Part shown: positions 3,884-33,969 of the stretch, in pieces
Layout: each line of letters begins with the position of its first letter
Numbering within the stretch: the first letter of the stretch is position 1
Source: a virus
Length of the DNA stretch: 38,808 nucleotides
Direction: 5' to 3' (one strand)
Virus record (IMG/VR): IMGVR_UViG_3300037882_002169
Span: 1 to 38,808 of that record
Program-made: the position numbers and the translations under genes
The notes under the pieces: model-generated
Seen by the model: the letters and a program-made list of their open reading frames with translations, nothing else
Told to the model about the DNA's origin: nothing
Database searches by the model: none

Positions 3884-4762
3884 TTACGCGTAGCCCTTTG
3901 GGCCACCACGTGGGGCATGGTTAGCACTAGAGCGGCCACCCCCGAGGATCCTGTAGACCTGGCCGGGGTCCTTCCAGCCACCCTCGAAGCTACTCTTGGC
4001 TTTGGGAAGGGTCAGCATGAAGTACTTACAATCATCCAGGGAGTGGTTGTCCCGGTTTGCAATTACCTCGGAGTATACCCCAGAGGTCATAAGTTGTCGC
4101 TCGCTCTGGGGTTGAAAGATGGCAGTCTCGAATTCCCGAATTTGGTGGGGGCAGGCCTCGCTGATACGGAAGGTGGTCTCGGGCTGCGCCCAGGCTTTGC
4201 GGAGCATCCCCACCCAGGCCTGTTCGGCCCCGGGGTCATTACGTCCTTTGATTAAATTGGTCAAGCCTGCCTGGCGCAGTAGCGTCTCCACCCCCACGGG
4301 ACCTCCGTAGGCTTGTTGTTGGGTGGGCACCCAAAGGGAGGGATCCGCGGCGGTGTAGCGGACCTGGTTCCAGTAGGGACACTCCTTTACCCTCGCTACC
4401 CACTCTGGGATGTTCTTGCAGGGTTCGTAGAGCTCCCACACACTGAAGATTACCTCGTCGATGATGGTGTAGACATGGACGGAGGCAGGGTTGCGAGTTC
4501 CGTAGTCGAGGCCTGCCCACATACGCAGGCCCACCAGGTCGGCGGGGTCGAAGCGAGGTACCACAATAAGGGGGCGTTTGTCGGCGAATTCCGGGAAGAC
4601 CTTGCTGCCCTGCACCGCGGTGTAGTCAATGTCGAGCTCCCGGGCAGCTTGGCCTGGGGTCATACCTGCTGCTGCAACACGGCGCCACGCGGGGTCCCGC
4701 TTCGCAGGGTCTGCAGTGAAGTGGCAGGTACAGACAATGAATTGGTTCACGGTGTTCCGCAC
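3884..4762 (-). CDS. terL: Terminase large subunit, C-terminal nuclease half (292 aa)
   Basis: This is the RNase H-fold nuclease domain that cuts the packaged concatemer. Catalytic acidic residues are visible: Asp86 in GLDYGTRNPAS, Asp140 in TAADPSLW, and Asp243/244 in NHSLDDCKYF. The N-terminal CTCHFTADPAKRDPAWR and ELDIDY...VFPEF segments match the linker between ATPase and nuclease domains. No Walker motifs are present; the ATPase is encoded separately at 7214-8092. The first usable start is GTG at 4762, but the same frame is open from 4816 and encodes SEHIYDAQGLRI, which looks like TerL. The gene is therefore probably a fission product, possibly with a non-standard start slightly upstream. 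Confidence 0.85.
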   Translation of the reverse strand: MRNTVNQFIVCTCHFTADPAKRDPAWRRVAAAGMTPGQAARELDIDYTAVQGSKVFPEFADKRPLIVVPRFDPADLVGLRMWAGLDYGTRNPASVHVYTIIDEVIFSVWELYEPCKNIPEWVARVKECPYWNQVRYTAADPSLWVPTQQQAYGGPVGVETLLRQAGLTNLIKGRNDPGAEQAWVGMLRKAWAQPETTFRISEACPHQIREFETAIFQPQSERQLMTSGVYSEVIANRDNHSLDDCKYFMLTLPKAKSSFEGGWKDPGQVYRILGGGRSSANHAPRGGPKGYA

Positions 4763-4811
4763 GATGCGGAGGCCTTGAGCGTCGTAGATGTGCTCGGAGA
4801 CTGGCGTGGGG

Positions 4812-5138
4812 TTACCTCAGGTCCAAACCCCCACCCTCTTCAGGTGGGGAGAGTTTCTTCTCACGGAGTCGCTGGGCTTCCACGATCACCTTGACCTGGG
4901 CAGCAATGACACTCTTCATGGATTCCATGATCTCATGACGAGCTTCGCGTGAGAGGCCGGGGGTGTCCAGGTCGAGGCCGTAGCCCGCGAGGATCTTATC
5001 GATCAGCAATCCAGAGCGGCGAAGCCGCGAGAGCCATGCGGCTTGCTCCCGGATGATCTCCGTGTCAGGGTCTTTCACACTGCCGCGGGGGCGACCCCCC
5101 TTCCGCTGTGCGATCTCTTGCTCGAGCTCTAGGTTCAA
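4812..5138 (-). CDS. Small basic DNA-binding-like protein, candidate small terminase (108 aa)
   Basis: The start is a TTG that overlaps the methyltransferase stop (TTGA), with GGAGG five bases upstream. An in-frame ATG at 5210 would overlap the neighbour by 76 bases and is less likely. The protein has an AT-hook-like GGRPRGS at residues 14-20, a helical central part (AAWLSRLRRSGLLIDKILAGYG), and a C-terminal amphipathic helix (IMESMKSVIAAQVKVIVEAQR) suited to oligomerisation. Its size, basic N-terminus, helical C-terminus and place directly before the terminase nuclease gene fit a small terminase subunit. No family signature confirms this, and a generic DNA-binding protein is equally possible. 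Confidence 0.6.
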   Translation of the reverse strand: MNLELEQEIAQRKGGRPRGSVKDPDTEIIREQAAWLSRLRRSGLLIDKILAGYGLDLDTPGLSREARHEIMESMKSVIAAQVKVIVEAQRLREKKLSPPEEGGGLDLR

Positions 5139-5848
5139 GAGGCCTCCGGCACTGCTAGGGGGGTAGCGTCGCGGGGAGCGAAGCTCCCCATGGCCCCACA
5201 GGCTTCGCATTTACACAGCAGGGCCCCAGTCTCGCTGCGCCCGAGGGCCCGCACCTGCCTCCGGCACTGGGGGCAGGCGAAGACTTCCGGGAGGATGCTG
5301 CCCACGAGTCTTGGGGCTCCCGCGGGTTTGTGGACCACCATCTCTACCTGGGCGCGGCTTCCGGTGAGTGTGGTATCGGCGGGTTCAGGTGGCGGAGGGC
5401 CATCCACCACTACCTCCAGACGGAGAAGCTTGTGCCCGGGTAGCAGCCCCACGAGCTCCGCGAGGTTCAGGTTCGCGGGGCACCAACTGATATCAGTGCT
5501 GGCGCTGAAGGCGAAGTGGTGTTGGGGATTGAAGCGGGAGGGCCAGAAGCCCTGCTCGTAGGCGTCAGCTTCTGGGGCCACCACAATTAGGTACCCTCCG
5601 GGCTTTACAAGGCTCCACCAGCGCGCAAGCGCCGCTTGCGGGTTACGCAGGTGCTCAAGGCAATGGCTGGAGAAGACCACATCGAAGGTTCCCGGGCGGG
5701 CACCGCGCATCTCCTGAGCATCGCCTTGGTCTCTGTCCCAGACTATGGCTTCAGGGGTGATGGGATCAGGGCCCCCTCCGATGTCAAGGATCCTCCCGGT
5801 GAGGTATTTCTCGAAGGAGGCGCGGGACTTGGTGGCTTCTTTACACAT
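5135..5848 (-). CDS. SAM-dependent methyltransferase with C-terminal zinc ribbon (237 aa)
   Basis: This is a class I (Methyltransf_11-like) fold. Motif I is GRILDIGGGPDP (residues 18-29), the acidic post-I strand is AIVWDRD, motif IV is FDVVFSSHCLEHL, and motif VI is LVKPGGYLIVVAPEAD. The SSHCLEH form resembles small-molecule and glycan methyltransferases rather than DNA methylases, and no target-recognition domain is present. The last 45 residues form a zinc ribbon (CPQC ... CKCEACG). It overlaps both neighbours. Together with the kinase, cupin and nucleotidyltransferase of this operon it could belong to a sugar-modifying set; that link is inferred from context. The substrate is unknown. Confidence 0.8.
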   Translation of the reverse strand: MCKEATKSRASFEKYLTGRILDIGGGPDPITPEAIVWDRDQGDAQEMRGARPGTFDVVFSSHCLEHLRNPQAALARWWSLVKPGGYLIVVAPEADAYEQGFWPSRFNPQHHFAFSASTDISWCPANLNLAELVGLLPGHKLLRLEVVVDGPPPPEPADTTLTGSRAQVEMVVHKPAGAPRLVGSILPEVFACPQCRRQVRALGRSETGALLCKCEACGAMGSFAPRDATPLAVPEAS

Positions 5849-6368
5849 TAGGGGACTCCTTTAGGATTTCTAGGTGATAGGCTGGGTCTGCTGGAGGCTC
5901 TAGGAACTTCGTCACCCGCCCATGGGCCTTGGCTGCTTCGCAGAACTTCACTCGCTGCGCGTAGGGGATGCTGCTGGGACCGATGTCCACCACCCACACA
6001 GGGCCCTCCGCGGGGGCGCAGTGGAGGCTTACCTTGGAGGGGCCCACCTCTAGGATCTTCTCCAGCATCAGGGCGGTGCAGGCTTCCCGCGAGAGGGTCC
6101 TGTGGGCTGCGTAGACATCCACCACTGCCTGGCCCGGGGCTTTGTAGAGGCTGCGCTGGCGATGGACGGAGTCCTTGTAGAGCACGCGTAGCGTGGCGGG
6201 GAGCTCCGCGGAGCAATTCTCCCACATCACTCGGGCCTGGTCCTCTGGGGTGCGGGCGAAGCTGGTCACCTTGCAGGAGTAGATGCCGCAGGAGAGGAGG
6301 ATTTCTTCGAGGACCATCCGGGCCCCCACGGGGATGACTACTCCATAGATCTTGGTAGGGTTGCTCAT
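5841..6368 (-). CDS. Peptidase M15-like protein, probable endolysin (175 aa)
   Basis: M15 peptidases cut D-Ala or L-Ala-D-Glu bonds in peptidoglycan. The family signature is readable: an N-terminal KVTSFARTPEDQARVM (compare the usual TSgyRtpedQa), then SLHC...VVDIG with His116 and Asp128 as zinc ligands, and AYHLEI with His165 as the third ligand and the nearby acidic base. There is no signal peptide or cell-wall-binding domain, as in simple phage lysins of 130-180 residues. The spacing between His116 and Asp128 is longer than in typical members, so it is a divergent relative. It overlaps the SprT-like gene upstream by four bases. No obvious holin is adjacent. Confidence 0.65.
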   Translation of the reverse strand: MSNPTKIYGVVIPVGARMVLEEILLSCGIYSCKVTSFARTPEDQARVMWENCSAELPATLRVLYKDSVHRQRSLYKAPGQAVVDVYAAHRTLSREACTALMLEKILEVGPSKVSLHCAPAEGPVWVVDIGPSSIPYAQRVKFCEAAKAHGRVTKFLEPPADPAYHLEILKESPNV

Positions 6369-6733
6369 AGTTCCAGTAGTGCCTTCGCGAAGGTCTCCAC
6401 GATTACTTCTTGGGATACCTCGTTATCCTTGGTGGGTTTGATCTTGATAAAAGCAGGCTCACACACGATGTGGCAGAGCTCGTGGACTAGGGTGAGTTCC
6501 ACATTAGTGTAGTGGACTGGGGCGCTCTCGGGGAAGCACGCAGGGTCGAGGATCCTGATTTCCGCAGAGCGGTGTTGACACTGCATTGCACATTGACCGT
6601 AGACGGTGTTGTCGGGGGTGCAGCCGAGGGCTTCTGGGGGGCCGTAGGCCACTGTCAGGTCCCAGTCAAGCAGCCGCAGTCTGCGCTGCCATTTCTTCAA
6701 AAGGCGTGCTAGGGAGGGCTTGCGGACGGTCAT
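6365..6733 (-). CDS. SprT-like zinc metalloprotein (122 aa)
   Basis: The HExxH motif is at residues 84-88 (VHELCH), followed by a Glu-containing helix (SQEVIVETFAKALL) that would supply the third zinc ligand. The N-terminal WDLTVAY strand is typical of the small phage and plasmid SprT-like or putative metallopeptidase proteins. At 122 residues it is a minimal catalytic domain with no DNA-binding zinc ribbon. Both ends overlap neighbours by ATGA. A role in trimming a virion protein or clearing protein adducts is possible; which of these applies cannot be told from the sequence. Confidence 0.7.
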   Translation of the reverse strand: MTVRKPSLARLLKKWQRRLRLLDWDLTVAYGPPEALGCTPDNTVYGQCAMQCQHRSAEIRILDPACFPESAPVHYTNVELTLVHELCHIVCEPAFIKIKPTKDNEVSQEVIVETFAKALLEL

Positions 6734-7221
6734 TGAGGACCTACTTTCTGCGCAACGCGCTCCGCAAGCGCGGTGGTGTGGGTGCGGGAGTTTCGGACAA
6801 AGAGCTTGGGCACAGCTGGGTAACGGCTGGGGCGGTTTAGATATTCATCGCTTTGGACCCGCAGGTGGGCACAGGCCACAACACGATCCATGTCACGGCG
6901 GGAATCCACAGGGACAATCAGGTCCACTGGCATGTAGTTCAGGGCGGCTGCACGCTCTGCGAAACTCTGGAAGGGACGGGTGGGGCCCTTCTCCCGGTGG
7001 ATTTTCTCATCGGTGTCTAGGGCCACCACGAGGGTTGCGCCTTGGGCGCGAGCGGCAAACAGGAGCCGCATGTGGCCGGTGTGGAGGAGGTCGAAGGCCC
7101 CATTCACCAGCACCACAGGGCCCGCAAGCGGGAGGTGTCGGAGCTCCGCGGGGCGTACCCAAGGGAGTTGGGCCCCTTCGGTGTCACGGTAACGGCGCCA
7201 CGCGCCAAGGCGGTCAGACAT
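6730..7221 (-). CDS. HldE-like cytidylyltransferase-family nucleotidyltransferase (163 aa)
   Basis: The protein matches the C-terminal half of HldE (RfaE), which joins ADP to heptose-1-phosphate. The signature NGAFDLLHTGH (residues 40-50) contains the HxGH nucleotide-binding motif. EKGPTRPFQSFAERAAAL is the conserved second motif, and MPVDLIVPVD follows. The start at 7221 has AGGAG eight bases upstream and overlaps the end of the terminase ATPase gene; an in-frame ATG at 7317 lies deep in that gene and is rejected. A PfkB kinase like the other half of HldE is encoded at 8846-9601. The pair suggests production of an activated sugar, perhaps to alter host lipopolysaccharide or a virion glycan. 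Confidence 0.8.
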   Translation of the reverse strand: MSDRLGAWRRYRDTEGAQLPWVRPAELRHLPLAGPVVLVNGAFDLLHTGHMRLLFAARAQGATLVVALDTDEKIHREKGPTRPFQSFAERAAALNYMPVDLIVPVDSRRDMDRVVACAHLRVQSDEYLNRPSRYPAVPKLFVRNSRTHTTALAERVAQKVGPQ

Positions 7222-8092
7222 ATAGCGTATCTCCTTCCTCATGAGTACGGTCTCTGCACACACGCTCGAACCATCCCAAATTGGCGCTGCTGATCGCGGT
7301 GTACCGCCCACCCCCATCGATTGCAGGTTTAATCGCCGCGAAGGTTTCCCCCGCCTCAGGGTTGAAGGCGGCCTCGTCGCTGAAGACCCCGGAAGGGTGG
7401 TACATGCGAATCTTGCTGACGCCTTGGGGGAAGCCGATGATCTCGCTTTGGAGGGAGGGCACCCTCAGGAGCCCAGCCCGGTTGGGGCCCTCGGAGAAGA
7501 TCGCAGGGTGCTGGCGCTTGAGCCAGCTCGGTTGGTTGTCAAAGATGGTCTGGCTGCGGGCGATGAGCTCCCGGGTCTTGGAGGCATCCTCACTTTGGAA
7601 GATGTTTTGCTTCCCCTCATGGAACAGGCTGTCCCAGGTGTACAAGGTCACAATGAGCCACGTCATCATCATGTCCCGGGACTTCTCCACCGCCACCATT
7701 TTTTCCGTTTGCCACACATCAATGATGGGCTCGAAGTAGGGCATCATGGTGAAGGGGCGGATCTTCGGGAGTTCACGGAAGACCTGTTTGAATTCTTGCT
7801 CTTTGGAGAGGGCCTGCTTGTGGAGCTCCAGCATGTGGGGCTTGCGTTGCTCCAGCACGTAGGTGTTGTGGTCCCCACAGAGAAGGCACTGATAGAGGTT
7901 CTTGGGGTCCTTGGTGTAGACGTAGGGGACCAGGTGGGCGGCAGGGTCAATCCAATAGAGGACGTCCTCCGCGCAGAGGGCCCACTCCCGGCGGGCGACC
8001 TCCACCATGGCCTCGGCACGGCCCTTGGGGGGCAGCCTCTCTATCTCTCTTTTGAGGTGTGGAGTTAAATATGGCTTAAGTTCGGTCGGCAT
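7214..8092 (-). CDS. terL: Terminase large subunit, N-terminal ATPase half (292 aa)
   Basis: This is the packaging motor ATPase. A Walker A-like loop stands at residues 133-145 (VAVEKSRDMMMTW), in the position of the usual KSRqmGkT/S, and it lacks the normal Gly-Lys. Walker B is SGVFSDEAAF with Asp239 and Glu240. AISSAN (267-271) matches the coupling motif. A short metal-binding-like CLLC lies at residues 69-72. The protein ends at ...GDTLYV, just where a nuclease domain would begin, and that domain is 2.4 kb downstream at 3884-4762. The start overlaps the cupin stop (TAATG). This is a split terminase; activity would require the two chains to assemble. Confidence 0.82.
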   Translation of the reverse strand: MPTELKPYLTPHLKREIERLPPKGRAEAMVEVARREWALCAEDVLYWIDPAAHLVPYVYTKDPKNLYQCLLCGDHNTYVLEQRKPHMLELHKQALSKEQEFKQVFRELPKIRPFTMMPYFEPIIDVWQTEKMVAVEKSRDMMMTWLIVTLYTWDSLFHEGKQNIFQSEDASKTRELIARSQTIFDNQPSWLKRQHPAIFSEGPNRAGLLRVPSLQSEIIGFPQGVSKIRMYHPSGVFSDEAAFNPEAGETFAAIKPAIDGGGRYTAISSANLGWFERVCRDRTHEEGDTLYV

Positions 8093-10370: not shown

Positions 10371-10573
10371 GTCCGCGCCTCGCTGTACCCATCGGGGCCG
10401 CAAGTCACTGGGTAGGGACCCCAAGGCTCCGAGGGGAGTCGGGACTCCAACCGATTCACCCGCCCCTCCAGCGCCTCCAACCTCCGGAGCAGCACATCTC
10501 GGTCCTCATGCTGGAATTCCCGCATCCAGTACTCCTCACTATCCATCGGCAGGGTGCTGTGGTCAATTCCCAT
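10367..10573 (-). CDS. Short coiled-coil protein (68 aa)
   Basis: The ATG at 10573 overlaps the previous stop by a few bases and has GGAG eight bases upstream. The middle (LLRRLEALEGRVNRLESRL) shows clean heptads with Leu at core positions, so a short dimeric or trimeric coiled coil is expected. It is flanked by an acidic N-terminus and a Gly/Pro-rich C-terminus. It may be a small scaffold or oligomerisation partner; there is no family match that I recognise. Confidence 0.6.
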   Translation of the reverse strand: MGIDHSTLPMDSEEYWMREFQHEDRDVLLRRLEALEGRVNRLESRLPSEPWGPYPVTCGPDGYSEART

Positions 10574-10982
10574 AGGGAGGCTCCAACTTCTGCGCCACCC
10601 GCGCCGCGGGCGCACGCTGCTCCTCTTGCTCCGCGTGTTCATGCCGGAGGTGGATGGTGACCGCCTCCGCCAGCGTAGCTGCTCCCCGGCACACCGGGGC
10701 CACCTGCATTTGGGGGCTCAGGTGGTCCGCCCGCAGGGCAAACTCGGTGCAGGGCTCATTACACTGGGGGCACTGCTCCATCTTGATTGCCAGCACATGA
10801 CCCCCACACCCCGGGCAGCGGGTCAGCGCAAGGGTGGGCGCCCAGGTGTGGCCGCGGGAGCAGCGATTGGAGGAGCACACCTGGGCAGCGGGGCCCGGCT
10901 CCGGGAAGATCCCAGGCCCGATAGGAGGGGGTTGGGGGGCCGGAGGCGGGGTTTCTGGGGGGTTTTGTGGGGAGAAACTCAT
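10563..10982 (-). CDS. Proline-rich zinc-ribbon protein, first gene of the leftward operon (139 aa)
   Basis: Residues 1-33 are a Pro-rich disordered tail. It is followed by Cys pairs: C(SSNR)CSRGH, CPGCGG and CPQCNEPC. Four or more Cys in two CxxC knuckles would bind at least one zinc. The C-terminal part is helical with a His/Glu-rich stretch (IHLRHEHAEQEEQR). It lies immediately downstream of the consensus promoter at 11000-11029 and so opens the operon. The ribosome binding site is weak. The function is unknown; zinc ribbons of this kind occur in many proteins of this genome. Confidence 0.7.
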   Translation of the reverse strand: MSFSPQNPPETPPPAPQPPPIGPGIFPEPGPAAQVCSSNRCSRGHTWAPTLALTRCPGCGGHVLAIKMEQCPQCNEPCTEFALRADHLSPQMQVAPVCRGAATLAEAVTIHLRHEHAEQEEQRAPAARVAQKLEPPYGN

Positions 10983-11518
10983 TTCACTCTTTACAGTCCA
11001 TTATATCACAGATCTCCCCGCTTTGTCAAGAGCTTACGGGCTGCGTAGGGGGGATAATTTTGAGGAGGGCGCCCCGGGAAAACCGCTCCTTTGTAATCAA
11101 CAAGTTACCGGAGGGCCCGCGGGCGCCCTCCCCACCCTCCTTGCCCTCCCCCGGAGGATCGGACACCCCGGACAGCCAGAGGCCGGACACCTGTCCGAGG
11201 CCCCCAGTGGCTCTGCAAACACCCGCCACAGCCCGTGTGGGGCCGCAGGTAGGCGGAACGCTAACCCTTTTATTTTCAAAAATTTAAAACTGTTCTCAGG
11301 TATTGGTACCGCCCCCCGGACCCCGCTGCTCCGCGCACTTCAAATCGCCCCGCCCCCACCCTCTTCGCCGGGGCTTCGCCCCCAACATCTAGTGGTTCCA
11401 CGTGCGTCATACCCCTAGGGGTAGTACTACGTGGGACGTAGTGGTTGATAGGGGGAGTGTGGGGAGAGGGCGGGGGAATATGCTATCGCCCCCAGCAAGT
11501 AATGTGAGTGGAGTACAC
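10983..11518. other. Non-coding spacer with promoter, hairpins and an AT-rich island
   Basis: There is no credible gene in this 536-base stretch. Besides the leftward promoter at its left end it holds a GC-rich hairpin (GGAGGGC at 11110-11116 with GCCCTCC at 11125-11131). An isolated AT-rich island lies around 11264-11296 in otherwise GC-rich DNA. A perfect 7-bp hairpin ACTACGT/ACGTAGT is at 11426-11442, and a GAGTG/CACTC hairpin at about 11508-11522 falls at the end of the leftward sigma operon. The AT-rich island could be a melting region, for example a replication origin, but no iterons are evident. Confidence 0.5.
11000..11029 (-). promoter_or_regulatory. Sigma70-type promoter for the leftward late operon
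   Basis: On the minus strand a perfect -35 TTGACA (11024-11029) is followed after 18 bases by a perfect -10 TATAAT (11000-11005). Transcription would start close to 10993, about ten bases before the first ATG at 10982. It is the only strong promoter seen for roughly 11 kb of leftward genes. Recognition by the host housekeeping sigma factor is expected. Confidence 0.8.
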
Positions 11519-11704
11519 TCAGGCTGTAGTGTCATGCGGAGCAGGTGCTACTTCATCATAGGCGGGATGGTCCCCATCGCAACAATGGAAGATTGACGGG
11601 GGGACATACTCTGCCATGCAGCGATGGCATTGGTGATAACCCCGTAGGGTTAGGATTGGATGTCGTAACATCCAGCGCCATTTTCGACAGATACAATTAG
11701 ACAT
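11519..11704 (-). CDS. Cys/His-rich small protein downstream of the sigma factor (61 aa)
   Basis: The ATG at 11704 has AGGAG ten bases upstream. The protein contains CIC near the N-terminus, then YHQCHRC and HCCDGDH: seven cysteines and several histidines in 61 residues, enough for one or two zinc sites. It follows the ECF sigma gene in the same direction. That is where anti-sigma factors are normally encoded, and many of them use a His-Cys-Cys zinc motif. The motif here is not the canonical HxxxCxxC, so an anti-sigma role is only a hypothesis. A plain zinc-binding protein is the alternative. Confidence 0.55.
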   Translation of the reverse strand: MSNCICRKWRWMLRHPILTLRGYHQCHRCMAEYVPPSIFHCCDGDHPAYDEVAPAPHDTTA

Positions 11705-11764
11705 GTTTGGGAGTCTCCTGTACTCCGCACGTCCCCCGCAAGCGAGGGCACGCGCAACACAGGA

Positions 11765-12379
11765 TTAGCAAGGGTAGTAGCATTCCAGCATTGATTGGCA
11801 GGGCAGGGGTTCCCCTAGACCGTACATCGCCACTAGGGGCCAAATCGTACGGGCGGATGCAGGCGCCAGGTAGCTTGCACCACCTTGGAACGTGACGCTA
11901 ACGGGCATGGAGTAGCTACCGTAGCGGGCGCGTATTGCACGAACTACACCGCGCAGGTGGCTCTCAGTGCAGGCTAGATTGAGTGCGGCGGTCGAGAAGT
12001 CGCCATTGCAAGCAAGTAGGGTACGGGCACACTGGCCCTGCTCCCCCTTGAGTGTGCGGAGCAGCCAGTTGCATGTTTTGTCTGCAATGGATTCGGGGGC
12101 GGCGTCGAAGCCTTGATTGTCGATTACCCCAAGGGTAGTTGCGCTAGTGCGACGAGTGCGTAGCATATCAATGGCACGATTTTTCACGCTACGCATGAAG
12201 AGGGCTTCAAGGTGCCGCGCGTCAACTGCGCTCTGCAATACGTCGAGGAATGCGTCCTGAACGCATTCCAGCGCGTCCGGTTCGCCCCGAACGATGCGCC
12301 GGGCACTCAGCATAGCGCGACGGCGACAATCGACGTAGACGCGCTCTAGGGCTTCACGATCAGTAGGGTTAGTCAGCAT
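11765..12379 (-). CDS. ECF-type RNA polymerase sigma factor (204 aa)
   Basis: Region 2 is clear at residues 10-85: helices RRRAMLSARRIVRGEPDALECVQDAFLDVL and FMRSVKNRAIDMLRTRR match the core-binding and -10 recognition helices of ECF sigma factors. After a linker, residues about 125-172 (CARTLLACNGDFSTAALNLACTESHLRGVVRAIRARY) resemble region 4 with its helix-turn-helix. Region 3 is absent, as expected for the ECF group. The N-terminal methionine is only about 20 bases from a promoter motif that is repeated on the other strand, and there is no clear ribosome binding site. It probably redirects host RNA polymerase to phage promoters; coliphage phiEco32 also encodes an ECF-family factor. Confidence 0.85.
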   Translation of the reverse strand: MLTNPTDREALERVYVDCRRRAMLSARRIVRGEPDALECVQDAFLDVLQSAVDARHLEALFMRSVKNRAIDMLRTRRTSATTLGVIDNQGFDAAPESIADKTCNWLLRTLKGEQGQCARTLLACNGDFSTAALNLACTESHLRGVVRAIRARYGSYSMPVSVTFQGGASYLAPASARTIWPLVAMYGLGEPLPCQSMLECYYPC

Positions 12380-12398
12380 AGATTCAAATGTACCACAG

Positions 12399-12429
12399 GT
12401 CTACCGATTCGAGCATGGGTGTTTTGGAT
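12399..12429 (-). promoter_or_regulatory. Predicted ECF-sigma promoter driving the sigma gene
   Basis: Read on the minus strand it is ATCCAAAA (12422-12429), a 14-base spacer, then TCGGTAGAC (12399-12407). The identical blocks with identical spacing occur divergently at 12462-12492. Spacing and asymmetry suit -35 and -10 elements of an ECF sigma factor. A start a few bases after the second block would leave a leader of only about a dozen bases before the ATG at 12379. This implies autoregulation. Confidence 0.65.
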
Positions 12430-12461
12430 GATAAATTCTTATGGGTGCATCAACATTTGTT

Positions 12462-12492
12462 ATCCAAAATGGGTGCCTGAAATTCGGTAGAC
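12462..12492 (+). promoter_or_regulatory. Predicted ECF-sigma promoter driving the rightward genes
   Basis: ATCCAAAA (12462-12469), 14 bases, TCGGTAGAC (12484-12492), matching the divergent copy exactly in both blocks and spacing. It would transcribe the gene at 12547 with a leader of about 50 bases and probably the accessory region beyond. ATGGGTG occurs three times in the interval (12415, 12441, 12469), which may be a separate operator. TTGACA at 12515 lacks a matching -10. Confidence 0.65.
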
Positions 12493-12546
12493 TGGTGCAA
12501 GCGAATTACGCCGCTTGACACTCAAACGAAAGCGAGATCAGCAAAC

Positions 12547-12927
12547 ATGACTCCCAACTTGCCTCTACGGCAACCGGGCACCCGCGATACAGCAACCGAC
12601 TTCTGGAGCGATTACGCGCAAGGGAAGGCGGTAGACTCCAAGGTGGGTACTACGGTACCCGGTACTTTTAAAGTCGAAAATGGCACCCTGACCGTTACGA
12701 TTCCCCTTGCAGACGTGACGTTCGAAGACGTGCGCAAGGTCGATGAGATGGTGGACGATGGGAAGGGTGGCAAGCGGCGCAAGCGCTCCGCGACTCTGGT
12801 GGTCAGCGCGACTGCGGACGGGGTGTGCAACATCCCCTTCCACTCCAGCGTCTATCAGCGGGAAGTGCCGCTGGCACCTAAAGCGGCGATCAACCTCAAT
12901 ATCGCACTTGCCCCCGCCAAAGGGTAG
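12547..12927 (+). CDS. Unknown protein, first gene under the predicted phage promoter (126 aa)
   Basis: The ATG follows the predicted ECF promoter; only a weak GAGA lies upstream as a ribosome site. The protein is mostly beta (GTFKVENGTLTVTIPLADVTF, SATLVVSATADGVC, AAINLNIALAPAKG) with a basic loop GKGGKRRKRS in the middle. Such a beta barrel with a positive loop could bind nucleic acid, but no OB-fold or other signature is certain. Two UACG-capped hairpins follow the stop. Being first behind the promoter suggests abundant expression. Confidence 0.75.
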   Translation: MTPNLPLRQPGTRDTATDFWSDYAQGKAVDSKVGTTVPGTFKVENGTLTVTIPLADVTFEDVRKVDEMVDDGKGGKRRKRSATLVVSATADGVCNIPFHSSVYQREVPLAPKAAINLNIALAPAKG

Positions 12928-12937
12928 CGCTAGCCTA

Positions 12938-12990
12938 CAGGGTACCCTACGGGGTACCCTGCTAGTAGGTTACTCCCTACGGGGAGTAAC
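12938..12990 (+). other. Tandem UACG-tetraloop hairpins
   Basis: Two perfect hairpins stand side by side: CAGGGTACCC (12938-12947) pairs with 12952-12961, and GTTACTCCC (12969-12977) pairs with 12982-12990. Both loops are TACG closed by C-G, one of the most stable RNA tetraloops. No run of T follows, so they are less likely to be simple terminators than transcript-end stabilisers or processing sites after the 12547 gene. Confidence 0.65.
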
Positions 12991-13051
12991 GTATTAGCAG
13001 TGAAGTCCCTGCGGAGTCTCATGAAGTCCCCGCGGGGAGCGGAAAGCCCCT

Positions 13052-13597
13052 ATGTCCCTACATGACTATCTCCTAGGAGGTACCCTACGCCGCATTGATA
13101 AGGCGGAAGAATCCTCGCGTAGTGGTACCCGTAGGGAAGCCCGGAAGCGGGTAGCAATCAGTACGAAGCCCAAAGCCCCCGCCCAGCTAGCTACTACCTC
13201 TCAGGGTGTCACCCTAGCAGGGAAGCCCCGTCCAATCCGTGTGGATCCAATAGTGGCCCCAGTGGGTAGCTACTGGGACGCCTACGCGCGTGCTACTAGT
13301 GGGTATGCTGAGCGTGTAGCGTTTGAACGGAAGATCCAAGCGGATGCGGTAGCACATTGGGTAGCGTGTGGGCGACCCCCGCATCCGGTATTTAGCCCAA
13401 AGGAATGGCACGCCCGTAACTACTACCACAACCTACGGCTACCCACTGCGGCCCCGTATCTTTGCAATGACTGTGGGCAGGAGCAATGTCTCTGTGGGGA
13501 AACTGGACGCCCAAAGATTGATACCGGGTATCGGGTAGGAGCTAAGGCCCTCCCTACCGCTCCGGTAGAGTTATACCCCCGCGATCCTCGCGGGTAA
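13052..13597 (+). CDS. Unknown basic protein with C-terminal Cys cluster (181 aa)
   Basis: The N-terminal 80 residues are basic and low in hydrophobic residues (RREARKRVAISTKPKAPAQ). The middle is helical (YAERVAFERKIQADAVAHWVACG), and the C-terminal part has CNDCGQEQCLCG, a CxxC plus CxC cluster able to bind zinc. A weak GGAAAG lies upstream of the ATG, and structured spacers flank the gene. The protein is unrecognised; a nucleic-acid-binding role would fit its charge, but this is not demonstrated. Confidence 0.65.
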   Translation: MSLHDYLLGGTLRRIDKAEESSRSGTRREARKRVAISTKPKAPAQLATTSQGVTLAGKPRPIRVDPIVAPVGSYWDAYARATSGYAERVAFERKIQADAVAHWVACGRPPHPVFSPKEWHARNYYHNLRLPTAAPYLCNDCGQEQCLCGETGRPKIDTGYRVGAKALPTAPVELYPRDPRG

Positions 13598-13741: not shown

Positions 13742-13765
13742 CCGTAGGGTGCCCTACGGATTTTT
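13742..13765 (+). terminator. Rho-independent-type terminator
   Basis: CCGTAGGG (13742-13749) pairs with CCCTACGG (13752-13759), followed by ATTTTT. It lies in the non-coding stretch 13598-13791 after the 181-residue gene, just before a block of small membrane proteins. The rest of that spacer contains further GC hairpins but no gene. Confidence 0.65.
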
Positions 13766-19861: not shown

Positions 19862-19889
19862 ACGTGCGGTGCAACACAAGGAGAAACTC

Positions 19890-21116
19890 ATGCAAAATAG
19901 TGTAACCCCCCTCCAGCAGGGAGATTTCGTTCTCTACAAGAACTCCCCAGTGAGGATTGTCACCATCCTAAAGGACTACTGTTATGGTATGGGAGAGACC
20001 CGAGATCTGGGTAGTGTGGAAGTTTACTCTCCCACAGTCACCCGGCTCAACCCTAAGGATTTCCACAGTCCTGCCTGGCGTTCCCTAATGTTCCACAACC
20101 CCCGCATTGGGCTCTCTGGAACTGATCCAGAGATTTTTGCTTTTGACGCTACAGGGCAGGTAGTCCCCAGCTTCACCTACCTTCACAGTAAGGCTGTGGC
20201 CATCGATGAGTACAACCAAACCTCTGACTCTGTTCCTCTCCCTCCGCTCTCCGGCCCTGTATTCTGGGATGGCTTCCAGGGAGAGATGGCCCCGCCGCCC
20301 TGCGCCTGCCACGAGGTCCTAATTGCCCGTATCGGGGGGTGCCTACGCAAAATGGCCGAGAGGCTTCCTCTCGGGGCGTACCTACAAACTGCGGATGTGG
20401 TGGAAATCCCCCTGGAGGTCCTCCAGGAGGCGCCCTCAGCTTTTGTAGAATTCGGGTGTAGCCCCAGCCTAAATGCCTACGGGGACGACCTCTACCCTAG
20501 AATTCACTTCTCCGATCCCTACCAGCACCGGCTCCGGTATAGTGGCTGCCACCTGCATTTTAGTTGGGGCCTAGCTGACATCCCTGCCCCTCCCTGGTAC
20601 CCTGATGGGACCGTGATGATGATGGATAAAGTTTTGGGGATTCTCCTGACTGCCTTTGGGCGGGGTCTGGAAGATCCCCGCCGCCGGGTAGCCTATGGGC
20701 GTCCTGGAGAGTACCGGCTCCCAGGCCCTGGTAGACTAGAATACCGCACCCCGGGGAGCTTCCTGCTGCGTAACCCTAGGATCTTTAACTTTGCCCTAGA
20801 CGTGGGGCGGTGGGCTTTTGGGATGGGGCTTCGCTACGATGGGCGGCGCCCAGACTTCCTCAGTGAGGCCCACCAAATCATCGCCTGCGCCGATGCAGAC
20901 GCGGCGTGCCAGTACATCAAACAACACTGGGACCTGTTCAAGGCAGTAATGGCAAAATTATACGGAAGTACCCTTGCAAGCCAGGCCCTCTATCTGGTAA
21001 TGGAGGGGGCACAAGCCTCTGGAATGACAGAAGGACCCTTACTCCCTAGGTGGTCTTCCCCCTCCACCTACGTGAAATCCTTCTCCGCCCAACTTATGGA
21101 CCAGGAGCTAGCCTAA
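19890..21116 (+). CDS. phiEco32-like COOH-NH2 ligase, type 2 (amidoligase, 408 aa)
   Basis: Members of this glutamine-synthetase-fold family are predicted to join a carboxylate to an amine using ATP. Visible signatures after an N-terminal beta domain (1-70) are GLSGTDPEIFAFD (acidic metal-binding strand), FWDGFQGEM, VEFGCSP, YSGCHLHFSWG (the conserved GxHxH), and RLEYRTPGSFLL near residue 290. The ATG at 19890 has AAGGAG upstream; an earlier GTG is rejected. The N-terminal domain has an SPAWRSL segment also seen in the protein at 15211. It sits in a run with a glutamine amidotransferase, an ATP-grasp protein and another amidoligase, a combination known from phiEco32-like phages. Confidence 0.82.
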   Translation: MQNSVTPLQQGDFVLYKNSPVRIVTILKDYCYGMGETRDLGSVEVYSPTVTRLNPKDFHSPAWRSLMFHNPRIGLSGTDPEIFAFDATGQVVPSFTYLHSKAVAIDEYNQTSDSVPLPPLSGPVFWDGFQGEMAPPPCACHEVLIARIGGCLRKMAERLPLGAYLQTADVVEIPLEVLQEAPSAFVEFGCSPSLNAYGDDLYPRIHFSDPYQHRLRYSGCHLHFSWGLADIPAPPWYPDGTVMMMDKVLGILLTAFGRGLEDPRRRVAYGRPGEYRLPGPGRLEYRTPGSFLLRNPRIFNFALDVGRWAFGMGLRYDGRRPDFLSEAHQIIACADADAACQYIKQHWDLFKAVMAKLYGSTLASQALYLVMEGAQASGMTEGPLLPRWSSPSTYVKSFSAQLMDQELA

Positions 21117-21319
21117 TGCGCCGTCCCACTTTCTATGCTTCCCTGCGGTTCCTCCGCCTATGGTTGGGGGATCTCCACTGTTGGCTGCGCCACACCCATG
21201 ATGTGGAGGGGCGGCTTGCCCTGTGCCCTTGTGGGAGGGAATGGTGGGGGGATCGCCTTACCTCTCGGAACTTCCGCGCTCCCCTGAGTCCTGAAGAACG
21301 CGCCTGGAATTTATTCTAA
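21116..21319 (+). CDS. Small basic protein with CPCG knuckle (67 aa)
   Basis: The start forms TAATG with the ligase stop. The sequence is basic and Trp/Leu rich (FLRLWLGDLHCWLRHTHDVEG), followed by LCPCGREWWGD and a charged end. His and Cys residues (HCWLRHTH, CPC) could form one zinc site. Translational coupling to the ligase suggests it works with it, perhaps as a carrier or adaptor, but there is no direct evidence for that. Confidence 0.6.
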   Translation: MRRPTFYASLRFLRLWLGDLHCWLRHTHDVEGRLALCPCGREWWGDRLTSRNFRAPLSPEERAWNLF

Positions 21320-21326
21320 CCATCCG

Positions 21327-21390
21327 CCCAGCTCCTCTGGGTACTACCACTAACTCCAACCCTTCGGGTTGTAACTACCTGCACAGCAGG
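21327..21390 (+). other. Three consecutive hairpins before the 21405 gene
   Basis: CCCAG/CTGGG (21327-21331 with 21337-21341), CAACCC/GGGTTG with a TTC loop (21357-21371), and CCTGC/GCAGG with an ACA loop (21378-21390) fill an 85-base spacer. AAAGGA for the next gene follows directly. No poly-T run is present. Confidence 0.5.
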
Positions 21391-21404
21391 CAAAAGGAAC
21401 TCCA

Positions 21405-21875
21405 ATGCCCTATCAAGCTATCCCCTCCCTAACCTACCGGGGGCTCACCGTCCCCCAACTTGAGGCCATCCTCACTGCTGCCAATATGTCGGTGGTGGCG
21501 TTCCGCCCTCCTGCTGAGGGGGAGTACTACCTCACAGCCCCTGCTCGGGAACTTCAACAAGCCCGAGCGGCAAAGGAGGACCCCCGGCTCATTCTTGTGT
21601 CCCGCCAACCTCAAGCTACACGTCCGGCTGCGCAGCCGGAGCCCCCCGGGGTGCTCGCCCTTACCGCGGAGGACTCCTACAACGGACGCGTGCCCGCTAC
21701 CCCCGCCGGTTACCGGAAAATTGACTTCCGGTTCAATGTCCCGGGAGAGCTGGTACTCCAGGCGGATGGGAGGGTTCGGGCGGCGCAAGTCCGCCTTAAT
21801 GCTCCCTTTTTCATCATGGAGAGCCTCCCACTGGAGACCCCCCACCCAGCTATAGCTCCCGGTGTGTGGGAGTAA
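21405..21875 (+). CDS. Unknown protein (156 aa)
   Basis: AAAGGA precedes the ATG. The N-terminal 70 residues contain a helix after a beta start (LTVPQLEAILTAANMSVVAFRP). A Pro-rich linker follows (RPAAQPEPPG), then a beta C-terminal domain (YRKIDFRFNVPGELVLQADGRV). Two small domains joined by a flexible linker are likely. No similarity was recognised. It sits between the two amidation enzymes and may be part of that pathway. Confidence 0.6.
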   Translation: MPYQAIPSLTYRGLTVPQLEAILTAANMSVVAFRPPAEGEYYLTAPARELQQARAAKEDPRLILVSRQPQATRPAAQPEPPGVLALTAEDSYNGRVPATPAGYRKIDFRFNVPGELVLQADGRVRAAQVRLNAPFFIMESLPLETPHPAIAPGVWE

Positions 21876-21907
21876 ACCCCTCAGGTCTCATCCAGCCCTA
21901 CTGGATG

Positions 21908-22013
21908 GGGCCACCACTAGGTGGAACCTCAACCATCCTCCAACCTAAGCGTTCGCCCTGCCTCGCAGAGCAACCCATCAGGATGCTGGAGTATTTCCGC
22001 CTAGTGGTGGCCC
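21908..22013 (+). ncRNA. Structured RNA closed by a 17-bp helix
   Basis: Bases 21908-21924 pair with 21997-22013 over 17 bp with a single G-T pair. The 72-base interior has CTCCA/TGGAG and CATCC/GGATG complementarities that could extend the stem. A short hairpin ATCCAG/CTGGAT precedes it. No coding frame covers it. The element is followed by GGTCCGACGGCCC, a 13-mer also found right after the tRNA-like gene at 33888. Function unknown. Confidence 0.55.
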
Positions 22014-22097
22014 GGTTGTAGCAAGGTCCGACGGCCCCTCCTGTCCTGGTGATGCGTCATCAGGCGGCGGAGTAAGAGTATTTAGTGACGCACCCTC

Positions 22098-22285
22098 CAT
22101 CCTAGTGTGCCCTTCGGGGTCACGGCTAGTAACATATGGTGGTCATCGAGTACTCGTAGTAATTCTCTGTGTGGTAGTTCTGAGGTGGGTAGGGGCTGTG
22201 TGGTGTGAGGGGGAGGATAGAGAGGGTTGGTGACTTGGTTGCTGTCCCTCTCAGCTAGTACCTCTCTCTGCATCACACTAGGATG
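22098..22285 (+). ncRNA. Structured RNA closed by a 12-bp helix
   Basis: CATCCTAGTGTG (22098-22109) pairs perfectly with 22274-22285. Inside are a TTCG-capped hairpin at about 22108-22125 (competing for a few bases), the palindrome CGAGTACTCG, and GAGAGGG/CCCTCTC in the right half. A purine-rich, GT-rich middle (about 22175-22235) is unlike any neighbouring coding DNA. It ends 46 bases before a small gene with an unusually distant ribosome site. A leader or independent ncRNA is possible. Confidence 0.5.
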
Positions 22286-22331
22286 TGATAGGACAGCCGG
22301 GCCAAATTTACAAAGGAGATACCCAATAGCT

Positions 22332-22451
22332 ATGAAGAAAGTTCTTGAGGGTCCTAAACCCCAGCTGAAGCCGGGTCGGTATTTTGTGGTGGCGTGTATA
22401 ACGGGGTTCCCCTTGGCGTATCGGGCGAGCCATAGGAAAGGAGATCGCTAG
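22332..22451 (+). CDS. Unknown small basic protein (39 aa)
   Basis: The product is MKKVLEGPKPQLKPGRYFVV followed by ACITGFPLAYRASHRKGDR: basic with a short hydrophobic middle. AAAGGAG is present but 13-14 bases before the ATG, longer than usual. The gene lies between the structured RNA and the 106-residue gene. Moderate support only. Confidence 0.45.
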   Translation: MKKVLEGPKPQLKPGRYFVVACITGFPLAYRASHRKGDR

Positions 22452-22452
22452 T

Positions 22453-22773
22453 ATGTTCTTCGCATCGACAGAGTGTTGTGGGATGCACATGGCAGCTGAT
22501 GCGGTGGCGCAAGACGACCTTTCCAAAGCCTCAGTAGAAAACCGTATGGTACTCAATGACTATAACGGAGGTCTCGTCCTCGCTACCACCATCTCTTCCG
22601 AAGGCCCCCTTATTCGCAAGCTAAAAGCCTCCGGCTGGAAGCCCCTAGAATCCTTCTACAATCCCAACTCCGGAAACATCGTCACTGTCTGGGGGTTGCG
22701 TACTCACCAAAAAGGTCATAGGATACCCAGCCCAACCCGTGTAGTTACCCCTAGGAAACGGAGTCCCAAATAA
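22453..22773 (+). CDS. Unknown protein upstream of the amidotransferase (106 aa)
   Basis: AAAGGAG lies upstream and the stop directly abuts the ATG of the amidotransferase. The N-terminus has CCGMH and helices; the core NGGLVLATTISSEGPLIRKLKASGWKPLESFYNPNSG looks like a small alpha/beta unit, and the C-terminus is basic (RVVTPRKRSPK). The WKP segment recalls the GWKPATPTQ piece in the Tat-signal protein at 15671. Function unknown; tight coupling suggests a partner of the amidotransferase. Confidence 0.65.
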   Translation: MFFASTECCGMHMAADAVAQDDLSKASVENRMVLNDYNGGLVLATTISSEGPLIRKLKASGWKPLESFYNPNSGNIVTVWGLRTHQKGHRIPSPTRVVTPRKRSPK

Positions 22774-23685
22774 ATGTGTGGTATTTTAGGAATGAGTGAC
22801 CGGAACCCAGTCACGCTTGCAATGATGCCCGTCCTGGCCATTGGGATGGCCAGCCGTGGGAAAGACAGCTGGGGCGTAACGAATGGGATTGAAACCCACA
22901 AAGAAGCCCAGAGCATCCTGGATGGCTACGTAGACCTAGAACTCCCTGGTCCCCAAACTTTCCACACTCGTGGGGCAAGCGTTGGGGCGGTAACAGACGA
23001 GAACGCACACCCCTTTGAGTACACCGCCCCCTCAGGACTCCGAGTCGTGGGCGTGCACAATGGCCACGTCTCCAACCATGAATCCCTTAATACCAAGTAC
23101 CACCGCGGTTTCCAAGTTGACTCCCAACACATCTTCGCCCATATCGCGGAACGGCGAGACCTCGGGGAGGTTGGTGGGTGGGGTACCATTGTCTGGTGGG
23201 AGCACCACCCTGGGGAGGCCGCCCCTCGGGGCCCCTACTTCAGTGGCTGGAATAACATAAACCTAGCTGTGTGCAAACTCTCCTCTGGAGATGTGGTGTG
23301 GGCTAGCACAAAAGCACCCATTGAGGTAGGGGCTCGGTTCGCAGGGGTGGAAATCACCAAAACCTACGCAGTGGAGCCAAAGAAAAAATACCTCCTCTCC
23401 CGTCTTCCCGCAGGAGACTGGGGGCTCTTGGCCCTCAAGGGGGTGCTAGCTTGGGCTGACCGCCCTTTTATGTTAGAGGTTCCCGCAAAGAGCGCCGCCG
23501 CTCCTTCTGGGAGTGGGCATCACAGTCTTGTCTGCACTAATTGTCGGTGTTACCGGCGTATGGCTCTCTCAAGGGACGTAATTTGCGCCACCTGCCTCTG
23601 GGAAGTTAAAATGAAACTTGGAGTTAGCTGCGAGCCCGAAGGTCCTGTAACGGACCACTACCCAGACCTCGAAGGTGCCTACTAG
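22774..23685 (+). CDS. Class II glutamine amidotransferase with C-terminal zinc ribbon (303 aa)
   Basis: The protein begins MCGILGM, so Cys2 becomes the N-terminal nucleophile that frees ammonia from glutamine. Further Ntn-family marks are HTRGASVGAVTDENAHPF (glutamine-binding Arg and the NAHP turn), GVHNGHVSNHESL (oxyanion Asn-Gly) and DSQHIFAHI. The domain spans about residues 2-215. There is no synthetase domain on the same chain; residues about 245-285 are a zinc ribbon instead (CTNCRCYRR, CATC). Ammonia would be passed to a separate ligase, and the ATP-grasp and amidoligase proteins nearby are candidates. phiEco32-like phages carry a similar set. Confidence 0.87.
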   Translation: MCGILGMSDRNPVTLAMMPVLAIGMASRGKDSWGVTNGIETHKEAQSILDGYVDLELPGPQTFHTRGASVGAVTDENAHPFEYTAPSGLRVVGVHNGHVSNHESLNTKYHRGFQVDSQHIFAHIAERRDLGEVGGWGTIVWWEHHPGEAAPRGPYFSGWNNINLAVCKLSSGDVVWASTKAPIEVGARFAGVEITKTYAVEPKKKYLLSRLPAGDWGLLALKGVLAWADRPFMLEVPAKSAAAPSGSGHHSLVCTNCRCYRRMALSRDVICATCLWEVKMKLGVSCEPEGPVTDHYPDLEGAY

Positions 23686-23698
23686 CCCAGGAGCCCCT

Positions 23699-24247
23699 AT
23701 GATCCCCATCTTAAGAGTGACCCACCCCTACCTCCACTACAGCCTATGCAGCATATGCCGTAACTTCAACTACTGCAAAAAAGAGGGCTGCATGCACGTT
23801 TGCGAGCCCTGTGATGTAGCAACACAAAGCCCCCCTACCCGTAGTGTAGTGGTGGCCCCGCAGGGCCCCCAATGGGGGAGTCCCCACGCAGACTACAGAA
23901 TCCCCCGGCCCTCACGGCACCTAAAGCTACGCCTCTGGGGTCCCGAACGCGGCAGCGCCGCAGAGAAGGATGCAAAGGTGACCTTCCACGGGGTACTGAA
24001 GGAACTATTCGACAGCCTCGACTACCCGATTGATCCCTTCTACAAGCCCACCACTACCCACCCTATCTGTAGTGTGTGTGGTGGGTTGGTGTGGTATGTG
24101 GGTAACAGAGAGCCGAAGTTTCTCCGCCGTTTGGCAAAGCAACTAGGCCTACGAATTGCAGTGGACCAGTGGCGGGTGGGGAGTAAGTGCCCGGGCTGGG
24201 AAGAGAAGCGGCAGCTCACGGGTGAGTTGGAGGGGAGCCTACTATGA
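23699..24247 (+). CDS. Zinc-ribbon protein of unknown function (182 aa)
   Basis: The start at 23699 has AGGAG upstream. The N-terminal part has a dense Cys cluster (CSICRNFNYCKKEGCMHVCEPC), enough for one or two zinc sites. A second CSVCGG lies near residue 122 with a later Cys. Between them is a basic, Pro-rich linker and a helical segment (VTFHGVLKELFDSLDYP). It is coupled by ATGA to the ATP-grasp gene. Co-location suggests a carrier or substrate protein for the amidation set, but this is only inference. Confidence 0.65.
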   Translation: MIPILRVTHPYLHYSLCSICRNFNYCKKEGCMHVCEPCDVATQSPPTRSVVVAPQGPQWGSPHADYRIPRPSRHLKLRLWGPERGSAAEKDAKVTFHGVLKELFDSLDYPIDPFYKPTTTHPICSVCGGLVWYVGNREPKFLRRLAKQLGLRIAVDQWRVGSKCPGWEEKRQLTGELEGSLL

Positions 24248-24993
24248 TCCTCCACGGCCACACCTCCGGCTCCATCCTCTCCCTGCGGGAGCCGCTCCGA
24301 GACTGCCCCGTAGAGCTCCGTTGGGGTGGCCCTCCGGTGGGCCCCCGCGCCATCAACGGCAGCGCCGAGCTGCTGGGGGGGTTAGCGCAACTGGAGAATC
24401 TCGCGGTGAGGGGGGTCTCTACACTGGATTTCACCACCTCCCTACAGGAAGCCCAGCAATGGGCCCTCACTACCCCTGTCTACGGGAGAGATGCCATACA
24501 CACCCAAGGCAAAGACATCACCCTTGCCCTCCCTGGAGGAATTTACCGAAAGAAAAGCATCCGTGGTAATGGCCAGCTCCCCGTACCAGCAACTCTCTGG
24601 CAGGGGAAGGACTTCTGGACCCGTTGGCAACCCTCCCTCCGAGAGTGGCGTTTCCACGTGATTCGCCACCGTGGAGAAATGACCAGCTTCGCCCGAGCGG
24701 TGAAGGTGTGGGAAGGAGATACCCGAGGGATGCCTCCGGGTGACGACCCCACTTCTCCGTGCGTACGCAGCCGTAGGCTGGGTTGGGTGATGGCTCACAA
24801 TGTGGACCCGCCCGACGGGCTGCGAAACCTCGCGAAGCGCGCAGTCGCCGCCTGCAACTACGACCTCGGGGCGGTGGATATCCTGGAGACCGCCACAGGC
24901 GGTGTGGTCCTAGAAGTCAACAGCCGCCCCGCGGTATGTAGTCCCTACACCCTGGAACGCTACGCGCAAGCATTCCGGACTTGGAGTCGCTAA
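24244..24993 (+). CDS. ATP-grasp ligase (249 aa)
   Basis: The C-terminal half shows the ATP-grasp core: IYRKKSIRGNGQLPVP for the nucleotide-binding lysine and loop, REWRFHVIRHRGEM with the RxxV strand, and YDLGAVDILE...GGVVLEVNSRPAVCSPYTLE with the metal-binding Asp, Glu and Asn (the ExN motif). The N-terminal 90 residues are the variable pre-ATP-grasp domain. The family makes acyl-phosphates and joins carboxyl to amino or thiol groups. In this cluster it may add an amino acid to a peptide or small acid. The size is at the low end for the family. Confidence 0.82.
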   Translation: MILHGHTSGSILSLREPLRDCPVELRWGGPPVGPRAINGSAELLGGLAQLENLAVRGVSTLDFTTSLQEAQQWALTTPVYGRDAIHTQGKDITLALPGGIYRKKSIRGNGQLPVPATLWQGKDFWTRWQPSLREWRFHVIRHRGEMTSFARAVKVWEGDTRGMPPGDDPTSPCVRSRRLGWVMAHNVDPPDGLRNLAKRAVAACNYDLGAVDILETATGGVVLEVNSRPAVCSPYTLERYAQAFRTWSR

Positions 24994-24996
24994 CTT

Positions 24997-25506
24997 ATGC
25001 CCCTAATCACTCAAACATCCTTCTGGCGTGACTTCCGAATAATGGAGAAATCCTGGACTGATTACGGAACTGCAGTAAATTGGAGAACCCCCAAAGGCCC
25101 TTGTGTCTTTACCGGAGGGCAGCCTCTACCCCCAAATGCTCCGCGACCTCAACTCCGATGCTGGCGGGACGCCTCTGGCGTTAGAGCTCTCGCCTGGTCT
25201 GGGGCCTTCCTCCCTCCCCACATTCTTCACCTCCCTGGAATCGTCCACCTCATAGACATCCCAGACCACCGGAATGTTTTAGTTTTCCATCCTATGGTTA
25301 CCGACCCCGGCTCGATGGACACCACACTCTTTAGGATCTCCGCCACAACCTGGTGGCATGACATTAATTGGGCCCCTCTCCCTGCCCTACAAGCCCGAAT
25401 CCGTCAAGAATTCCAAGACCTCTCAGGTACCAAGGACCCCGTCATACTTCCCCATGCCACGCCACTCCTGTTAAAATTCCTAGACCGCAAAAGGGTGGTA
25501 CAATGA
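24997..25506 (+). CDS. Unknown protein in the amidoligase cluster (169 aa)
   Basis: It starts three bases after the ATP-grasp stop and overlaps the following ATG. The sequence has Trp-rich beta segments (FWRDFRIMEKSWTDYG, ALAWSGAFLPPHILHL), a central HLIDIPDHRNVLVFHPMV, and a helical end (ALQARIRQEFQDL). Single domain, no signal or membrane segment. No motif was recognised. Its place inside the enzyme run suggests a role in the same pathway. Confidence 0.65.
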   Translation: MPLITQTSFWRDFRIMEKSWTDYGTAVNWRTPKGPCVFTGGQPLPPNAPRPQLRCWRDASGVRALAWSGAFLPPHILHLPGIVHLIDIPDHRNVLVFHPMVTDPGSMDTTLFRISATTWWHDINWAPLPALQARIRQEFQDLSGTKDPVILPHATPLLLKFLDRKRVVQ

Positions 25507-25709
25507 GTCGGCCCCGGAAGGTTATGCTTCCCCAGTTTGAAATTCCTGGAGAGCGCTATCTATCCCTAGTCGATGCCCCCACCGCCATGATCCGTGACAA
25601 CTTCTGGCACTACTACACGTCCGAGGTGCCTGACTTCGCCCCCTGCACCCGTCGTGGACGCCGCGTCTTTCTCATCCATGTAACTCTTGAAGAACTCCTA
25701 GGAGATTAA
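25503..25709 (+). CDS. Unknown small protein (68 aa)
   Basis: The start is the ATGA overlap with the preceding gene; the stop forms TAATG with the amidoligase gene. The protein begins with a basic MSRPRKVML and ends VFLIHVTLEELLGD. It contains a single Cys. Similar basic R-P-R/K-V openings recur in small proteins at 28037 and 28327 of this genome. Unknown function. Confidence 0.6.
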   Translation: MSRPRKVMLPQFEIPGERYLSLVDAPTAMIRDNFWHYYTSEVPDFAPCTRRGRRVFLIHVTLEELLGD

Positions 25710-33793: not shown

Positions 33794-33818
33794 GCGCCCC
33801 CGGTAGCCCACCAAGATC

Positions 33819-33889
33819 CACTCCATCGGCTAATGGTAGGCCCCAGTGATTGTACATTGGAGGTGAGGGTTCGAGTCCCTCTGGGGTGG
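33819..33889 (+). tRNA. tRNA-like gene with six-base anticodon loop
   Basis: Acceptor CACTCCA (33819-33825) pairs with TGGGGTG (33882-33888, one G-T), and the discriminator is G. The D arm is GGCT AATGGTA GGCC, with the conserved GG. The T arm is GAGGG TTCGAGT CCCTC, fully canonical. The anticodon stem CAGTG/CATTG (33844-33848 with 33855-33859) is complete, but the loop has only six bases (ATTGTA), so no anticodon can be assigned; TGT after T33 is the nearest reading. CCA is not encoded. It is a tRNA by every other criterion, so a decayed or repurposed tRNA is likely. Confidence 0.7.
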
Positions 33890-33969
33890 TCCGACGGCCC
33901 TAGGCCGTGACGCCCGTAAGGGCAAGCGTAGGAGCGCTACTCTCCCGAAGGGGTGTGAGGCCCCAAAAG

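Follow-up and report, generated by a model that had tools for sequence, protein, structure and literature searches.

Phages phiEco32 and 7-11 each encode a sigma factor that recognises phage promoters distinct from those of the host (PMC8948821). In 7-11, junction repeats (E about 1e-8) had been put forward as promoters for the phage sigma factor (PMC4331800), whereas the promoters that were later mapped, and transcribed in vitro, carry a different bipartite motif, GTAAtg-(16)-aCTA (PMC8948821). A hairpin precedes the sigma gene of the same phage (PMC8948821). This precedent, in which predicted repeats and mapped promoters disagreed, means that a surprising repeat at a junction is no proof of recognition by a sigma factor, and the confidence expressed below has been set accordingly.

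ECF systems usually place a self-type promoter ahead of the sigma gene, and an AAC or GTC core is typical of many ECF promoters. Here, we describe a junction between two phage gene arms at which the gene for an ECF-type sigma factor adjoins two outward-facing copies of a bipartite motif, ATCCAAAA-N14-TCGGTAGAC, and we weigh whether these copies could be promoters for that factor.

Gene arms, host-type promoters and relatives of the phage

The window is an IMG/VR record of an uncultured bacterial virus, analysed over its whole length of 38,808 bases and in all likelihood part of a larger podovirus genome. Its podovirus marks are an SU10-type portal and amidoligases. Pfam profile searches matched the portal to PF23899 SU10_portal (7.3e-25) and revealed a phiEco32-type COOH.NH2 ligase (PF14395, 2e-6), as well as a second amidoligase, a class II amidotransferase and a family A DNA polymerase. 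The genes form two opposed arms, the structural arm running leftward on the minus strand and the other arm running rightward. A sigma gene is the outermost member of the leftward arm, and the arm junction is the 167-base gap between this gene and the first rightward gene. The features around the junction are the following.

11000-11029, minus strand: host-type promoter TTGACA-18-TATAAT with extended -10, a 12/12 match, leading the structural operon (first gene 10563-10982)
11030-11764, minus strand: stretch of 735 bases without a convincing gene, from the sigma stop codon to the structural promoter; no open reading frame with a coding score
11765-12379, minus strand: gene for the ECF-type sigma factor P0001, 204 aa; region 2 at about residues 20-77, region 4 at about 98-153 by helix layout only, and some 50 C-terminal residues unassigned
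12389-12502, no strand assigned: long imperfect inverted repeat holding both motif copies (inverted repeats I1 and I2; fold z -4.8)
12399-12429, minus strand: leftward motif copy, exact match; putative -35 and -10 elements of the sigma gene
12462-12492, plus strand: rightward motif copy, exact match; putative -35 and -10 elements of the first gene of the right arm
12547-12927, plus strand: first right-arm gene, 126 aa, with coding potential; probable target of the rightward motif copy
13052-13597, plus strand: second right-arm gene, 181 aa, with coding potential; possible target via read-through
13742-13759, plus strand: terminator-like hairpin, from a consensus scan only, after the second right-arm gene; could end the rightward transcript

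Pfam and NCBIfam searches returned no match for either the first or the second right-arm gene, and a search for relatives of the first returned none. Within the stretch at 11030-11764, RNA folding is stronger than in shuffled sequences (z -3.6, 20 shuffles).

Several observations concern the wider gene content. The terminase large subunit (minus strand, 3884-8092) is in two parts, an ATPase (7214-8092) and a nuclease (3884-4762), separated by about 2.5 kb of other genes; the parts lie likewise apart, with their order kept, in the relatives L003, L009, L012, L014, L017, L024 and L025. A single open reading frame (35179-37926, plus strand) fuses a uracil-DNA-glycosylase-like domain with the family A DNA polymerase, and a tRNA gene, its anticodon left unassigned by ARAGORN, lies at 33818-33892 (plus strand). 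The two amidoligases and the class II amidotransferase are clustered at 19869-26878 (plus strand) with an ATP-grasp protein, which gave a weak match (RimK, 0.028, below cut-off).

Host-type promoters are prominent in this phage. The promoter at 11029-11000 has counterparts, matching 10 to 12 of 12 positions, ahead of the same gene in L024, L025, L017, L009 and L014, and three strong host-type promoters (28855, 31617 and 34983) lead distal units of the right arm. Given the strength of such promoters in other parts of the phage, the host is probably of the sigma70 type. In the gap there is no host-type promoter of at least 9/12 at a spacing of 16-18, and none faces the sigma gene; among all spacings tested, the best match reaches 9/12, its spacer being 15 bases long. 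The motif elements at the junction are themselves unlike the sigma70 consensus of the probable host.

The relatives examined keep the structural arm and the amidoligase, amidotransferase and ATP-grasp genes. Their regions examined, several of them from records that are fragments, contain no recognisable sigma gene and lack the first right-arm genes. The junctions of L024 and L009 each have a host-type promoter directed toward the right arm, and that of L025 has a weak one (9/12). A replacement of the promoter type at the junction of the window's phage is therefore possible, and the weakness of the L025 promoter keeps us from wording this more strongly.

The sigma gene and the motif pair beside it

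The open reading frame at 11765-12379 is a real coding sequence (codon log-odds +34). It had been taken for a sigma gene in a preliminary description of this DNA, and profile searches agree: region 2 of P0001 scores 25.3 bits with Pfam Sigma70_r2 against a cut-off of 24 (E 1.3e-5), and NCBIfam ECF models match residues 8-87 at E values of 2.6e-8 to 8.6e-6, all below their own cut-offs. Region 4 drew no profile match, even when that part was searched alone. The 204-aa size and predicted helix layout of P0001 would fit the ECF (group IV) plan, which includes a region 4 with a helix-turn-helix and lacks regions 1.1 and 3. An AF2 model, computed from the single sequence without relatives, is poor (pLDDT 43) and serves as a hint only; its helices can be read as three from region 2, then a linker and four resembling region 4, and a Foldseek search with this low-confidence model yielded ECF sigma factors as its seven best matches, none of them significant.

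P0001 matches no PHROG family, whereas gp36 of phiEco32 and gp47 of 7-11 match PHROG 1740 at 1.9e-45 and 1.1e-38, respectively. Since ECF models match P0001 and PHROG 1740 does not, we regard it as an ECF-type sigma factor outside the known phiEco32/7-11 family. Searches of viral contigs, bacterial genomes and phage records found no relatives of P0001. Its gene is the only sigma gene in the record, and the motif pair is confined to the adjoining gap.

Some candidates from the relatives were rejected. A match in L031, restricted to region 4, belongs to an HNH-type protein with a helix-turn-helix (HTH) and was discarded as a sigma factor, and weak phmmer matches in L014, L017, L019 and L020 are N4-gp56 major capsid proteins. 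A match in L029 was rejected as an orthologue of P0001; it is a 417-aa open reading frame among structural-arm genes. This reading frame (L029:1138-2391, plus strand; G007, G006) contains an ECF sigma-like stretch that includes a region-4-like HTH (TIGR02937 3.7e-7, Pfam r4_2 4.7e-5).

The motif occurs exactly twice in the record, in two exact, outward-facing copies with 14 bases between the blocks, just as the preliminary description had reported. The scan it had proposed, run here to three mismatches, found no further copy; shifted versions of the two copies aside, the closest remaining sites differ at 4-5 positions and are about as numerous as expected by chance. The two copies are identical at 17/17 motif positions and at 1/14 spacer positions, and their identity reaches beyond the blocks, with ATTT-n-T-n upstream of ATCCAAAA and nn-GTG downstream of TCGGTAGAC. 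Seventeen bases separate ATCCAAAA from GTAGAC, and the distances from block end to start codon are 19 and 54 bases for the two genes. The earlier judgement that 17 identical positions are unlikely to arise by chance was upheld by a shuffle test counting non-overlapping copies in direct and inverted orientation: a block pair of 8+8 at equal gap appeared in 2/30,000 dinucleotide shuffles of the 167-base region, and the real pair, at 8+9, is stronger than the pair tested. It is also the sole inverted 7+7 pair in the whole window (400-base tiles).

Searches of viral contigs found neither the exact motif nor a relaxed mirror pair. Across about 85,000 bacterial and archaeal genomes the motif was found 19 times, always singly, 15/19 times inside open reading frames and never adjoining a P0001-like gene; these matches are at chance level and give no sign of a host regulon. 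Three copies of ATGGGTG, previously suggested to be an operator, are indeed present in the gap (12415, 12441 and 12469), but some 7-mer occurs at least three times in 172/3,000 shuffles of the gap, so that the triple alone is not significant.

Promoters, operator or structural dyad

With moderate confidence, we propose that P0001 would read both sites, combining autoregulation with the start of the first right-arm gene, and probably of the first two. In this proposal, P0001 would join the host core RNA polymerase and recognise the blocks of each copy as -35 and -10 elements. The leftward copy would confer positive autoregulation on the sigma gene, with transcripts that could continue into the structural arm, while the rightward copy would simultaneously switch on the first right-arm genes (12547-13597). 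Two promoters for P0001 are the best reading of the pair because of the fixed spacing, the placement before both genes, the free spacer and the adjoining sigma gene. The pair is exact and non-random, it faces both flanking genes and its spacing is -35/-10-like; the spacers, equal in length, unconserved and not complementary beyond chance, fit two promoters rather than a stem.

Other observations count against promoters. The record, probably an incomplete contig, has only two copies of the motif, and these copies also form a dyad or hairpin. Region 4, which is needed for reading a -35 element, was detected by no profile. The predicted leader of the sigma gene is very short, at about 10-13 bases, and has no Shine-Dalgarno sequence. 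An AAC or GTC core is absent from the elements, and the junction repeats of 7-11 provide a cautionary precedent. Furthermore, pure autoregulation needs a basal start-up promoter, and none is seen in the gap.

Because the gap as a whole forms one long, imperfect inverted repeat, a dyad operator or structure is the rival to be taken most seriously. The repeat's two motif copies are inverted, 32 bases apart, about a near-central axis. They could thus be bipartite operator sites at which a phage or host regulator, either repressor or activator, governs the divergent genes from promoters that are weak or located elsewhere. Identities on both sides of the -35/-10 blocks would suit such sites, as would the two ATGGGTG copies that abut or overlap ATCCAAAA blocks. 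We nevertheless consider an operator pair unlikely, as each copy is asymmetric and spaced like a promoter, the gap shows no other promoter and the neighbouring gene encodes a sigma factor rather than a classical repressor. Alternatively, the repeat could act as a DNA or RNA structure, for example a replication origin or an mRNA-stabilising hairpin. The predicted fold of the gap has an energy of -56 kcal/mol, the lowest z among 97 sampled windows belongs to one that begins within the gap, both mismatches of the central arm are G-U pairs in plus-strand RNA, and the hairpin ahead of the 7-11 sigma gene offers a parallel (PMC8948821). A selected stem should pair across the 14-base spacers, yet their complementarity is at chance level (180/1,000 shuffles) and was rejected as evidence for a hairpin; nor does any comparable local pair of inverted blocks stand out at the junctions of the relatives. 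A purely structural role therefore seems distinctly unlikely to us.

Promoters for an alternative sigma factor of the host would let these phage genes answer to the state of the host, with the phage sigma factor acting elsewhere, and would explain how expression of an autoregulated sigma gene gets started. We think this very improbable given the chance-level occurrence of the motif in bacterial and archaeal genomes. A chance repeat, for which the mere two copies might speak, has a negligible probability in view of the shuffle test, its uniqueness in the window and its site at a sigma gene.

Returning to promoters read by P0001, the placement of the blocks as -35 and -10 elements stands in so far as they lie at promoter-like positions between the arms. 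The preliminary description had further extended their reach over the whole rightward half, including the amidoligase genes, and this part finds no support. No motif copy lies further right, a terminator-like hairpin (13742-13759) follows two right-arm genes, the distal right arm and the structural operon have strong host-type promoters of their own, and amidoligase and amidotransferase genes are also present in relatives that yielded no sigma gene. Instead, host sigma70-type promoters would drive early expression as well as the majority of operons, structural and distal right-arm alike, and the phage sigma circuit would be a local addition at the arm junction, not a master late switch of the phiEco32 kind. 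Read-through from the sigma promoter into the structural operon is conceivable. Judged from its sequence, the control circuit is probably a fairly ordinary type of viral switch in an unusual local layout. More tentatively, and with the balance tilting somewhat against it, a compact cassette consisting of the sigma gene and its own mirror-image promoters may have been inserted between the arms of a phage otherwise run by host sigma70 promoters; it would serve as a self-sustaining switch in both directions, and its sigma factor would come from a lineage apart from the known phage families.

Comparison with known phage and bacterial sigma systems

PhiEco32 shares with this phage the SU10/phiEco32-type portal family, a COOH.NH2 ligase, two opposed gene arms and an ECF-like sigma factor, gp36, with its own promoter set. 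P0001 differs from gp36 in lying outside PHROG 1740 and in having no BLAST similarity to it. The promoters of phiEco32 consist of a single -10-like element (tAATGTAtA), six of them serving middle and late genes, and its sigma gene is located inside the middle cluster rather than at the arm junction. A tblastn search with the portal found no record of the phiEco32 group, so that the relation to phiEco32-like podoviruses is distant. The structural operon described here is led by a perfect sigma70-type promoter with no motif copy, unlike the late-operon design of phiEco32 and 7-11.

Closer in promoter layout is Salmonella phage 7-11, whose gp47 is likewise an ECF-like phage sigma factor with a bipartite promoter and a spacer in the same range. 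The motif is a different one, however, gp47 belongs to PHROG 1740 and P0001 does not, the two show no BLAST similarity, and no gp47 promoter was found directly ahead of the 7-11 sigma gene. Autoregulated bacterial ECF (group IV) sigma factors resemble P0001 in that its region 2 matches ECF models. In contrast to them, P0001 is phage-borne, its region 4 escapes the profiles, no recognised anti-sigma gene lies alongside and its putative promoters are two, identical and outward-facing.

If the promoter reading is true, this would be the third independent uptake of an ECF-like sigma factor in this broad phage group, after phiEco32 and 7-11, and the sigma circuit would have been added atop conserved host-type promoters rather than replacing them. 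The promoter pair and sigma factor would then form a compact matched set that suits testing in vitro. Among these three phages, it would be the first in which identical outward promoters flank the sigma gene itself.
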